This document shows, in pieces, positions 26,447-56,549 of a stretch of DNA of 64,000 nt (the first letter of the stretch is position 1; every line of letters begins with the position of its first letter). Below the pieces are notes generated by a model. It was not told where the DNA came from. It ran no database searches and was given only the letters and a program-made list of their open reading frames with translations. The DNA lies in assembly GCF_030651915.1 (NCBI RefSeq), contig NZ_JAUSBV010000005.1, forward strand, positions 682,001 to 746,000, in the 5' to 3' direction. Origin of the DNA: Parvibaculum sp. (lineage in GTDB: Bacteria; Pseudomonadota; Alphaproteobacteria; Parvibaculales; Parvibaculaceae). Made by a program: the position numbers and the translations under genes.

Positions 26447-26548
26447 TTTGTGACAGCGATTGTGACAGCGGAATCGGGCTCAGACCCCCCCTCTGTCACG
26501 AAACTGTCATAAAACTGTCACAAACGGATTTATCCCCGACTTATCCCG
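26447..26548. promoter_or_regulatory. Tandem Pho-box-like repeats with TTATCCCC units, copy 1
   Basis: In the 326-base gap between ubiA and the Nudix gene, CTGTCA begins at 26493, 26504 and 26515, an exact 11-base period with A-rich 4-base spacers as in PhoB sites (7-base repeats plus 4). Two reverse-oriented GTGACAG units precede them (26450 and 26462). TTATCCCCG (26530) and TTATCCCG (26541) follow, also 11 bases apart. The block from CAGAC and the C run through the third repeat is nearly identical to copy 2 near 54867. The rest of the gap (26549-26707) shows no gene. Confidence 0.6.
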
Positions 26549-26707
26549 CAAACGGCGCCAAATTCATGCTGCAGTGCAGCGCGGAGGTTCGACACGGCGC
26601 GAACTTCATTTTCGATGGTTTGCCGTGAAGGCAACAGGTGGACGCATATTCGAGAGTCGATTTGCACCCACGGCAATGAAATTTGCATTGCCGGGGCGGC
26701 AAGTTTC

Positions 26708-37456: not shown

Positions 37457-37522
37457 GGCGAGGGAATTGACTCGCGGCGCGCGCGGGTCTTAACTCCCCT
37501 CACTTCCGGTCGTACATATCTT

Positions 37523-37596
37523 CCGCGCGACTGGCGATATCAGATGGGTCACCATCGGGGAGCGCGGAGACTGATCTTCAGCCGATCGCCTGGGCA
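37523..37596 (+). promoter_or_regulatory. ZTP riboswitch (pfl motif) upstream of glyA
   Basis: CCGCGC (37523-37528) and GCGCGG (37562-37567) form stem P1. Between them lie GACTGGCGA and an ATGG/CCAT hairpin leading to CGGGGAGCG, and the 3' part has GCCTGGGCA near 37588-37596. These conserved pieces in this order match the ZTP/ZMP aptamer. It senses AICAR phosphates that build up when 10-formyl-THF is low, and commonly controls glyA or purH/folate genes. Here it precedes glyA, which feeds one-carbon units. Confidence 0.92.
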
Positions 37597-37630
37597 GCAC
37601 TTCAAGATGCTGGCCGGGCGTTTTTGTTTT
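37588..37630 (+). terminator. ZTP riboswitch-linked terminator before glyA
   Basis: GCCTGGGCAGCA pairs with TGCTGGCCGGGC across a short loop, with one mismatch and one wobble, followed by GTTTTTGTTTT. The 5' arm reuses the aptamer's GCCTGGGCA, so aptamer folding and terminator folding exclude each other. This predicts a ligand-ON switch: ZTP binding lets transcription enter glyA. Confidence 0.88.
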
Positions 37631-54054: not shown

Positions 54055-54846
54055 ATGAACATGCACACCCCGCCCGTTGGCGAGCGCCTGCGCGAATGGC
54101 GCCAGCGCCGCCGCCTCAGCCAGCTCGCCTTTGCCTGCGACGCCGATATATCGGCGCGGCATTTGAGCTTTCTCGAAACCGGCCGCGCGCGGCCGAGCCG
54201 CGACATGCTGCTGCATCTGGCCGAACTGCTCGATGTGCCCTTCCGCCAGCGCAACGAGCTGCTGCTCGCCGCCGGCTTCGCGCCGGTCTATTCCGAGGCC
54301 GGGCTCGACAGTCCGGATGCGGCCGCCGCGCGGCGCGCGGTCGATCTGGTGCTGAAGGGGAGCGAGCCCTATCCGGCGCTCGCCGTCGACCGGCACTGGA
54401 ACCTCGTCGCCGCCAACGATGCCGCCGGTCTCTTCCTGCAAGGGGTCGATCCGGCACTCCTCGAAGCGCCGATCAATGTGCTGCGCCTCAGCCTCGACCC
54501 GCGCGGGCTGGCGCCGCGCATCGAAAATCTCGCCGGCTGGCGCAGCCATATCTTCATGCGGCTCGAACGCCAGGTGGCGCAGACGGCCGACGACGGACTG
54601 GCGGCATTGCTCGAAGAGTTGCAGGCGATGCCGGGCGGCACGGATGAAAGCGACGCGGACGAATATGGCGGGCTGATCGCACCGCTGAAGCTGCGGACGG
54701 AGGGGGGTACCCTGACTTTCTTTACCGCCACCACCGTTTTCGGCACGGCGGTCGATATTTCCTTCTCGGAACTGGTGATCGAGTCCTTCTTTCCGGGCGA
54801 CGCCTTTACCGCCGCGGCAATGCGCGCGGCGATGGACGACGCCTGA
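54055..54846 (+). CDS. XRE family regulator with MmyB-like ligand domain
   Basis: A 263-residue regulator. The helix-turn-helix is ERLREWRQRRRLSQLAFACDADISARHLSFLETGRARPSRDML; the C-terminal domain contains HWNLVAANDAAGLFL and matches the MmyB-like PAS-related domain that binds acyl or other small ligands. ATG 54055 is preferred over an upstream start at 54019. Probably controls the divergent membrane protein and itself. Confidence 0.92.
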   Translation: MNMHTPPVGERLREWRQRRRLSQLAFACDADISARHLSFLETGRARPSRDMLLHLAELLDVPFRQRNELLLAAGFAPVYSEAGLDSPDAAAARRAVDLVLKGSEPYPALAVDRHWNLVAANDAAGLFLQGVDPALLEAPINVLRLSLDPRGLAPRIENLAGWRSHIFMRLERQVAQTADDGLAALLEELQAMPGGTDESDADEYGGLIAPLKLRTEGGTLTFFTATTVFGTAVDISFSELVIESFFPGDAFTAAAMRAAMDDA

Positions 54847-54866
54847 ACGACAGCAAAAGGGCCTCA

Positions 54867-55002
54867 AGACCCCCCCCTCTGTCACTAAACTGTCAAAAAA
54901 CTGTCACAAATCTCCCACGGGACGACTTATCCCCGGGGGGCGGAGCCAGTTATCCCCGGGGCCGGCGGCAGATATCCCCGCCGGCAAAAAAACTTGTCCC
55001 CG
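54867..55002. promoter_or_regulatory. Tandem Pho-box-like repeats with TTATCCCCG iterons, copy 2
   Basis: Between the convergent ends of the XRE and monooxygenase genes. CTGTCA occurs at 54879, 54890 and 54901, exactly 11 bases apart, preceded by CAAGAC and a C run as in copy 1. TTATCCCCG occurs at 54927 and 54950, with variants ATATCCCCG at 54972 and TTGTCCCCG at 54994 (spacing 22-23, about two helix turns each). A GCCGGCGG/CCGCCGGC hairpin (54961-54983) overlaps. There is no gene start near, so its role is unclear. Confidence 0.6.
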
Positions 55003-55022
55003 GTTTTGGGGCCGCTTCGGAC

Positions 55023-56549
55023 CTATTCAGCGGCCGCGACCGGCGTTCCGATGCCGTCGGCGTTGCCTTGCGCGCTCGCCGTCCGTGTACGGAGGTTGAA
55101 CTCGGCGAAGTTCGGCCGCCGCACCCGCCACCAGTATTTGAAGGTGTAGTTGGCCCAGTTGTTGGTCACCTTGCCCGACGCCGTCTTGTACCAGCTCGTG
55201 CAGCCGCTCGCGAAAACCGAGTTGGCATTGTCGGCCTGCACGCTTTCGTTGGAGGCGCGCTGCACTTCCGGCTTCACGTCGAGATAAAGCAGGTCGTCGT
55301 TGCGCAGCTTCTTCACGCATTGCGTGATGTAGTTCGCCTGGCACTCGATCATGAAGATAATCGAGTTGTGACCGAGATTGGTGTTCGGTCCGTAGAGCAT
55401 GAAGAAATTCGGGAAGCCCGCGACCGTCATGCCGTGATGGGCTTCGGCGCCGGTCTTCCAGGCATCTTTCAGGTCGCGGCCGGCCAGACCCTTCATCGTC
55501 ATCGGCCCGAGGAAATGCGTCGTGTCGAAGCCGGTGCTGTAGATCACGACATCGAAGTCGCGTTGCGCGCCGTCCTTCGTGCGGATACCGGACGGCACGA
55601 TTTCGTCGATTCCGTCGGTGACGACGTCGACATGATCCATGCCCATGGTCGGCCACCAGTCATTGGCGAACAACACGCGCTTGCAGCCGGGTTCGTAATC
55701 CGGCGTCAGTTTCCTCTGCTTTTCGGGATCGGAGAGGTAGAGCTTCATCTCGTCGATGCCCATCTGCTTCAGCTTGTCGCCGGAGGTGCGGAAGGAGCGA
55801 AACAGCAGCTCGCCGAACCAGTAGATCTTCCAGCGCTGAATGTTCATCGTCCAGGGCAGCGCCTTGTAGATGGCGCGTTCCCAACCGTAAAACTCGCGCT
55901 GCGGGCGCGGCAGCACCCAGCTCGCCGAACGCTGGAAGACAGTGACACTGCCCGCTTCCTTCGCGATCTCCGGTACGAACTGGATGGCGGAGGCGCCATT
56001 GCCGATGACGGCGATGCGCTTGCCCTTCAGGTCGACATTGTGGTTCCACTGCGCCGAATGCCAGCTGTCGCCGGCGAAGCTGTCGCGGCCCTTGATGTCG
56101 GGCCGGACCGGACGGTGCAACTGGCCGGTGCCCGCCGCCACGACATGGGCGGTGAAGCTGCGGTCGCCGGATTTCAATGTCCAGGCGCCGCTCGCCTCAT
56201 CGAAACGCGCATCGTCGATTTCGGTGTTGAAGCGGATGTGACCGCGCAGACCGTATTTGTCGACGACGGATTCGAGATAGGCCTTGATGTCGGCTGAGAA
56301 GACGAACTTCTTCGTCCAGTCGGGCCGCATGTCGAAGGAGTATTGATACATGTGCAGCGGCACGTCGCAGGAACAGCCCGGATAGGTGTTGTCGCGCCAG
56401 GTACCGCCGATCTCGGCAGCCTTTTCATAGATGGTGAAATCGGTGAAGCCGGCCTGCTTCAGCTTGATCGCCGTGCAGATGCCGGCCACGCCCGCGCCGA
56501 GAATGGCGACCGTGGGGCCGGACGCCGGTTTTGCCTGAGCCAGTGCCAT
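55023..56549 (-). CDS. Baeyer-Villiger-type flavin monooxygenase
   Basis: A 508-residue FAD/NADPH monooxygenase. FAD motif [16 protein letters not shown] at 15-30, the BVMO fingerprint [11 protein letters not shown] at 158-168, and NADPH motif [16 protein letters not shown], all in the expected order. These enzymes insert oxygen next to a ketone carbonyl, useful in degrading cyclic ketones or terpenoids; the substrate is unknown. It is divergent from the RraA-like gene, which itself precedes an esterase, suggesting lactone processing. Confidence 0.9.

Follow-up and report, generated by a model that had tools for sequence, protein, structure and literature searches.

DnaA boxes follow the consensus TTATCCACA. 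ParR/parC and plasmid iterons consist of 11- or 22-bp direct repeats that give rise to a protein lattice. The Pho box, in the account of PMC4415409, is likewise made of 11-nt direct repeats, with CTGTCAT as the repeat in E. coli. E. coli PhoB also binds intragenic and inert sites away from promoters, most of which are reported not to be conserved (PMC10294691). Among proteins with many dispersed chromosomal sites, Noc is credited with about 70 and SlmA with 24 to 52; these sites are palindromic and thinned out in the terminus, as outlined in PMC4726725.

The block described here, at positions 54867 to 55002 of the window (the whole 64,000-nt stretch of Parvibaculum sp. DNA that was analyzed), has features of several of these systems. 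We propose that it is one node among about 45 to 75 fixed, polar, and roughly evenly spaced chromosomal sites. An OmpR/PhoB-type regulator, most likely PhoB, would bind its CTGTCA array head to tail; a stand-alone DnaA-domain-IV protein would bind the adjacent TTATCCCC boxes; and both would line one face of the DNA. More tentatively, the nodes may serve the whole chromosome, not nearby promoters, in folding, segregation, or replication control, perhaps linked to phosphate state. To this whole chain, namely, nucleoprotein nodes for chromosome organization or replication control that probably involve PhoB and the small DnaA-IV protein, we assign a probability of about 40%, judging from sequence.

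Within the block, a C-run (54870 to 54877) is followed by CTGTCA at 54879, 54890, and 54901, in 11-bp steps, and then by four boxes (Table 1). An earlier note had described the boxes as four TTATCCCCG-type units at 22 to 23 bp; the spacings are indeed 23, 22, and 22 bp, but only two of the four units are exact TTATCCCCG. The same note had called the block a second copy. The other copy lies at 26493 to 26549, and the two are part of a set of about 72 arrays, so that "second" understates the family. TTATCCCCG occurs 3 times in the 64 kb against 0.22 expected, and at least 3 occurrences were seen in 1 of 100 shuffles. The flanking genes (one for an HTH regulator that has an MLTR_LBD domain, the other flavin monooxygenase-like) converge on the block as the note had stated, one ending at 54846 (+) and the other at 55023 (−); by a rough gene call, gaps between convergent genes make up 5 of the 36 gaps of at least 60 bp in the window. 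A promoter scan of positions 54700 to 55200 found none, and a terminator scan of the same interval returned a single terminator-like stem, at shuffle level and outside the block. Elsewhere in the window, a ZMP/ZTP riboswitch was detected at 37517 to 37602 (+), scoring 73.4 bits against a cutoff of 39.

Table 1. Features of the two array copies in the window; lattice values are distances in bp from the array start
Feature	Position	Strand	Remark
Inverted CTGTC half-site GACAGC, 5' of array	54849..54854	+	Enriched here in other copies
Array prefix, C-run plus T	54870..54878	+	Consensus in G000 ACCCCCCT
Three-unit CTGTCA array, 11-bp steps, CACAAA at end, Pho-box grammar	54879..54910	+	
Box 1, TTATCCCCG	54927..54935	+	Lattice +48
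Box 2, TTATCCCCG	54950..54958	+	Lattice +71
Box 3, ATATCCCCG, weak	54972..54980	+	Lattice +93
Box 4, TTGTCCCCG	54994..55002	+	Lattice +115
First window copy, CTGTCA x3 array, C-run before	26493..26524	+	
First window copy, TTATCCCCG	26530..26538	+	Lattice +37
First window copy, TTATCCCGC	26541..26549	+	Lattice +48

The genome from which the window comes (G000; 3,498,796 bases in 11 contigs) contains 73 exact matches to CTGTCA-N5-CTGTCA-N5-CTGTCA. With overlapping matches merged and five one-mismatch places added (two-mismatch matches were left out), these give 76 places, of which 72 have CCCC inside the nine bases preceding the array and are treated here as core arrays. L008, L046, L081, and L083 have no C-run and were excluded from the core set and from the spacing tests; L062 was kept, although its CCCC stems from a TTGTCCCCGG. 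L007 and L008 (contig C4, 65912 to 66064) are a pair of CTGTCA triples that lie 125 bp from each other at a single place. The triples at L046, L062, L081, and L083 have nonstandard prefixes. That of L046 is situated at a leucyl aminopeptidase gene (3' end), and that of L062 extends over the 3' end of a gene of the RNase E/G family, an arrangement common to genome G001 (L123); L083, 5' of a pstS-like gene, is plausibly a Pho box.

The 72 core arrays share the consensus ACCCCCCT-CTGTCACAAAACTGTCAtAAAACTGTCACAAA, which carries more than 1.3 bits at most positions (the high values of the six-base units being partly a search effect, since the units were the query) and fades out on either side. Arrays have three, sometimes four, units. 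The 100-bp bin directly 5' of the 72 arrays holds 47 copies of the inverted half-site GACAGC, compared with 0 to 7 in each other 100-bp bin. Of 135 copies of TTATCCCCG in the genome, 111 fall 0 to 299 bp downstream of the core arrays (79 forward and 32 reverse). The reversed array pattern has 80 matches with two mismatches and 1 with none in G000, and 12 to 26 with none in G001, G013, and G022; its value as a control is low, since ACTGTC x3 coincides in part with the repeat at any array whose spacers end in A and that has a fourth unit close by. A TCCGTGTACGGA-like palindrome also recurs by arrays (e.g., L070, L066, and L132), and GTGTACGGA is found in the first 100 bp after arrays five times each in G000 and G001. 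That the block belongs to a genome-wide family of sites is near certain, and it is very probably a composite protein-binding site maintained by selection.

Arrays and boxes keep a common register. Forward TTRTCCCS boxes start mostly 37, 48, 60, 71, 82 to 83, 93, 104 to 105, and 115 to 117 bp from the array start, and both window copies fit this series. The best period is 11.2 bp (R = 0.85; n = 154 forward TTRTCCCS boxes 30 to 140 bp from the array start). The first box alone gives R values of 0.94 in G000 and 0.85 in G001, reverse boxes lie on the same lattice (R = 0.80; n = 68), and none of 2,000 jittered sets matched any of these values. Direct boxes are mostly 11 to 12 or 22 to 24 bp apart, and facing pairs mostly 14 to 15 bp. 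At least one box lies within 350 bp of 61 of the 72 arrays in G000 and 45 of the 54 in G001; the remaining 11 and 9 arrays have none in that range. Because arrays and boxes share one 11.2-bp lattice, both kinds of site should face one side of the DNA. The suggestion in the earlier note that this DNA organizes protein binding thus gains support at the level of sequence, and the 11/22-bp spacing, for which it had proposed a comparison of related genomes, recurs in relatives.

The boxes resemble clusters of DnaA boxes in being 9-mers that start with TTATCC, in their helical spacing, and in the presence of one such site in the promoter of a DnaA-domain-IV gene. They differ in forming some 70 clusters and in sequence, reading TTATCCCCG or TTGTCCCCG and not the DnaA-box consensus. 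A DnaA C-terminal domain besides dnaA itself is encoded in 25 of 27 Parvibaculum genomes, mostly in frames of 120 to 240 aa. At all 18 orthologous loci examined (L255 and L257 to L274 without L270, from 17 genomes of the genus and G027 of another genus), one TTATCCCC followed by G or A lies 113 to 244 bp 5' of a conserved codon. The DnaA_C genes at L256 (G000) and L270 (G019), which were judged to encode different, nonorthologous proteins and were left out of the 18, have no TTATCCCC site; L287, of another family and also judged not to be an ortholog, has no site 5' of the gene, and small DnaA_C genes of other families at L285 and L286 have TTATCCTC at the corresponding place.

The domain of the small protein matches E. 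coli DnaA domain IV (chain 1j1v; E = 6e-10), and the nearest NCBIfam models carry only the name "hypothetical protein." The small protein reads GRDRTT in 18 of 18 cases, where DnaA, compared in three genomes, has GRDHTT; by inference from structural work, this change may shift the box preference from TTATCCACA to TTATCCCCG. Neither TTRTCCAC nor TTRTCCCC was found in two G014 stretches around dnaA. A divergent HTH gene, recovered by a frame search, shares the promoter at 13 of the 18 loci, and the TTATCCCC site there could equally be an operator of that gene; the L255 locus in G000 also encodes DUF6456 and ROS/MUCR proteins. We consider it somewhat probable that a DnaA-IV protein occupies the TTATCCCC boxes. 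The "DnaA-like proteins" guessed at in the earlier note would then have a candidate, to which the TTATCCCC site 5' of its gene at 18 of 18 loci points indirectly.

Boxes also occur without arrays. The array pattern is absent or single in 12 of the 27 Parvibaculum genomes, and 8 of these (G002, G003, G004, G006, G007, G016, G018, and G019) have the small DnaA gene with TTATCCCC, so the boxes are not dependent on the array. ACTTATCCCCG is also enriched in some Parvibaculum genomes that lack the array pattern, such as G016 (31 versus 1), and in members of the family from outside the genus, such as G027 (16 versus 0). Two TTATCCCC boxes about 73 bp apart at L181 and L183, in species without the array pattern (G002 and G012), likewise indicate that boxes occur on their own. 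Of 15 CTTATCCCCG places examined in G017, 4 have a three-unit array, 2 have two units and a decayed third, and 9 (L290 to L295, L298, L303, and L304) have no array; these nine were taken as chance occurrences and were not used. In G014, 22 of 40 places examined carry a three-unit array.

The pattern MYGTCA-N5-MYGTCA-N5-MYGTCA has 11 to 74 matches in 15 of the 27 Parvibaculum genomes, a single match in three, and none in nine, and it is absent from all 44 genomes searched outside the genus. An apparent restriction to a few species was an artifact of demanding CTGTCA at all three units and gave way to the 15 genomes under this wider pattern. The narrower CTGTCA/CTGTCA/CYGTCA has one match, in a genome of another family, among 119 genomes from outside the genus. 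Three GTCA units with TTATCCCC were found in 68 stretches of a species-genome collection, from which the records nearest the window were possibly left out: 44 stretches from Parvibaculum, 7 from Rhodobiaceae, 13 from Alphaproteobacteria (HGW), and 4 from scattered other taxa. The composite pattern had no match in a viral collection, and when the block was searched together with its flanks against plasmids, there was a single weak match, confined to the HTH gene.

As in the Pho box, the array consists of 11-nt direct repeats with a CTGTCA-type half-site, a grammar that the earlier note had not recognized, and it is similar to the box at pstS in G000. There, CTGTCACAAAACTGTCATGCAACTGTCG lies 5' of the pstS-like gene, which adjoins a phoR-like kinase gene; both genes score just below the model cutoffs. 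In G000, G026, G001, and G013, the pstS box has CTGTCA units and a first spacer like that of the arrays. Eight OmpR-family proteins are encoded in G000, of which only L278 passes a PhoB cutoff and L281 passes CtrA; the remaining six reach no cutoff among the listed models. The arrays differ from a Pho box in their number (about 70), even spacing, frequent location between convergent genes, three to four units, C-run, and lattice-phased TTATCCCC boxes. They share an off-promoter location with the intragenic PhoB sites of E. coli but hold their positions from one species to another, whereas the E. coli sites are reported to be mostly not conserved (PMC10294691). A protein of the OmpR/PhoB type is a somewhat probable occupant of the array.

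The positions of the arrays are conserved. Of the 54 arrays in G001, 51 pair with a G000 array at the same place, as judged from flanking DNA with a register of 250 bp or less; 38 pair on both flanks in the same orientation, and orientation is kept in 50 of the 51, with one inverted. In the more distant G014, 15 of 23 examined arrays (of 47) match a G000 array with a register of 400 bp or less. The array of the block is among these shared places: the same monooxygenase gene adjoins it in G014, with the array inverted relative to the gene. The arrays at L064/L121 and at L060/L205 occupy the same place but are inverted between species relative to a common flanking gene. Orthologous arrays share 32 of 101 box positions, compared with an average of 8.7 and a maximum of 21 in permuted pairs.

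Array sequence behaves differently from array position. The six-base units are identical between orthologous arrays because of the way in which the arrays were picked. Spacer identities in orthologous versus random pairs are, for example, 0.26 versus 0.25, 0.58 versus 0.52, and 0.40 versus 0.35, with a slightly larger difference after CACA. Since orthologous spacers are barely more alike than random ones, each site mainly follows the consensus of its own species. For G001 the consensus is CTGTCATCGAaCTGTCAAAAAaCTGTCACaaa; inspection by eye gives CTGTCATCGAACtGTCAcnnAACCGTCA for G014 and CCGTCATCGAAACGTCAtcnAAACGTCA for G017, which G025 resembles. Arrays in G017 and G025 are mostly CC/AC/AC-GTCA or CT/AC/AC-GTCA, having moved to ACGTCA units, while the pstS box reads CTGTCA/CCGTCG in G017 and GTGTCA/CCGTCG in G025.

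This divergence means that PhoB may not be the array binder in those two species, and it leads to an alternative hypothesis in which the same dispersed nodes are read by a dedicated binder of 11-bp direct repeats other than PhoB, with a preference that drifts between species. Spacers that track the species more than the locus fit such a protein. The array-like pstS box in four genomes does not, nor does the presence in G000 of one OmpR-family protein out of eight that passes a PhoB model cutoff, and we regard this hypothesis as possible but doubtful.

PhoB as the most likely binder leaves the role of the arrays to be considered, and here gene context is informative. By a rough gene call, 27 of the 72 G000 arrays lie between convergent genes, 32 between tandem genes, and 10 between divergent genes, while 2 are intragenic and 1 is unclear; 14 of the 72 face genes running the opposite way. 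The promoter position of a Pho box is thus not the rule, and with so many arrays in convergent gaps and with these gene orientations, a promoter role is unlikely for many of them. The remark in the earlier note that the block is "not a normal promoter" therefore extends, within the accuracy of that gene call, to many copies.

Spacing and polarity point in another direction. On a single 3.59-Mb contig of G001, the 54 arrays follow one another at 66 kb on average with a coefficient of variation (CV) of 0.58, and none of 20,000 random sets was equally even; for the 47 arrays of G014 the average distance is 83 kb (CV, 0.59; P = 5e-5). Within G000, evenness was found on contigs C8 (26 arrays; P = 0.001), C7 (P = 0.002), and C5 (P = 0.017) and was not significant on C10 (P = 0.12); the G000 and G001 values are not independent, as the species have common ancestry. 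Arrays lie on the G-rich strand at 50 of 72 loci in G000 and 39 of 54 in G001 (P = 0.001 each), and the bias is also present where both flanking genes oppose the array (11 of 14 and 7 of 10); that the G-rich strand is the leading strand is an assumption. A two-breakpoint split of orientation accounts for 42 of 54 arrays in G001 (P = 0.0035), being the best of all such splits, with a 1.3-Mb segment that need not be a replichore. In G014 the split was not significant (35 of 47; P = 0.16), and a runs test on orientation gave a P value of 0.008. Taken together, even spacing, fixed places, and polarity suggest a chromosome-level role, to which we give about an even chance.

The same observations bear on the hypothesis of an unusually large Pho regulon, in which the arrays would be PhoB-activated promoters of mRNAs or antisense RNAs and TTATCCCC the site of a coregulator. 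The Pho-box grammar of the arrays agrees with it, and some arrays lie directly 5' of genes, ispH and era among them. It accounts poorly for the arrays in convergent gaps or facing opposing genes, for the even spacing, and for places that are kept while half-sites change; moreover, no conserved sequence follows CACAAA, and the block in the window has no promoter-like site. We therefore consider a regulon of this kind improbable.

A further hypothesis is that these are nucleoid-occlusion-like sites, whose bound protein would keep the cell from dividing across the nucleoid, in the manner of Noc or SlmA. The arrays match those systems in being dispersed over the chromosome in similar copy numbers, as far as PMC4726725 describes them. 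They are polar, composite, and evenly spaced, and they consist of direct repeats with boxes in either orientation instead of palindromes. The largest gap between arrays is smaller than expected by chance in both G001 and G014, so array positions by themselves give no hint of a depleted terminus. Such a function seems to us quite improbable.

The comparison of orthologous genes shows how an array can arise. In G000 (L138), G001 (L140), and G013 (L139), an array lies in frame inside the coding sequence of a MobA-like gene (PF12804; loci L012 and L138 to L141), and G022 (L141) has a slightly changed copy. Among 23 orthologs compared (a weaker G021 hit and paralogs were left out, and G026 gave a paralog only), the 19 others in the genus have ordinary codons there (VTFVHNPDYAEGLSTSLRTGLAALP in G011 and similar elsewhere). 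Nearly all are equal in length to the array version, VTKLSNNCHKEGLSTSLRVGINGLP, with G003 one residue longer. As the lengths agree without an insertion, the array and the GGGGATAA a few codons on must have arisen by base replacement, and insertion of an array into this gene was ruled out by the alignment. The place 5' of ispH was compared in 25 genomes of the genus, and four of them have the array there (G000, G026, G001, and G013).

These comparisons weigh on the idea that the family is a mobile or REP/MITE-like repeat spread by copying, which its dispersed, multicopy, and orientation-biased distribution might otherwise suggest. Empty sites were sought in the MobA-like gene and 5' of ispH, and in the former the array replaces codons that the rest of the genus conserves, with no insertion; the 72 aligned copies have no unit borders beyond the core, the same places are occupied in other species, and spacers shift species-wide, all of which make copying very improbable. 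An RNA gene, attenuator, or terminator, as in the "unannotated RNA" of the earlier note, is hardly credible: inverted CGGGGATAAGT/ACTTATCCCCG pairs are present, but the block has no Rfam match at the gathering threshold (two weak ones at a relaxed threshold), it and the first copy fold no better than shuffles (z-scores of −0.27 and −0.62 and of 0.68 and 0.38, respectively), and boxes in both orientations occupy one helical lattice.

The label "iteron-like," in the sense of replicon iterons, does not suit a sequence with some 70 copies in the genome. A plasmid iteron origin was rejected given the 76 places in G000 and the flanking of the block by the HTH/MLTR_LBD regulator and flavin monooxygenase-like genes, not rep. 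The likeness to ParR/parC repeats and plasmid iterons is confined to direct repeats of 11 or 22 bp that yield a protein lattice; copy number and neighboring genes set the arrays apart.

We return to the reading of the arrays as chromosomal nodes that PhoB and a small DnaA-IV protein would occupy. In its most specific form, the proposal is of a previously undescribed chromosome-wide system in which a phosphate-response regulator lines up with a stand-alone DnaA-domain-IV protein on 11.2-bp-phased nodes about every 45 to 85 kb, which point with replication, keep their places across much of the genus, and have their consensus rewritten jointly at all sites in each species. We advance this full version only tentatively and think it unlikely to hold in every part. 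The open-licence literature searched contained no account of such an element.

Few dispersed chromosomal site systems have been described, and every one of them has opened up an area of chromosome biology. The array system has a clear grammar, a joint change of consensus across the genus, and two named candidate binders, and is therefore directly testable, in an environmental bacterium that is harmless. The small DnaA-domain-IV proteins of these bacteria would gain a likely DNA target. If PhoB is the binder, the nutrient state of the cell would be tied to chromosome architecture; if it is not, a new protein that binds 11-bp repeats is to be found.
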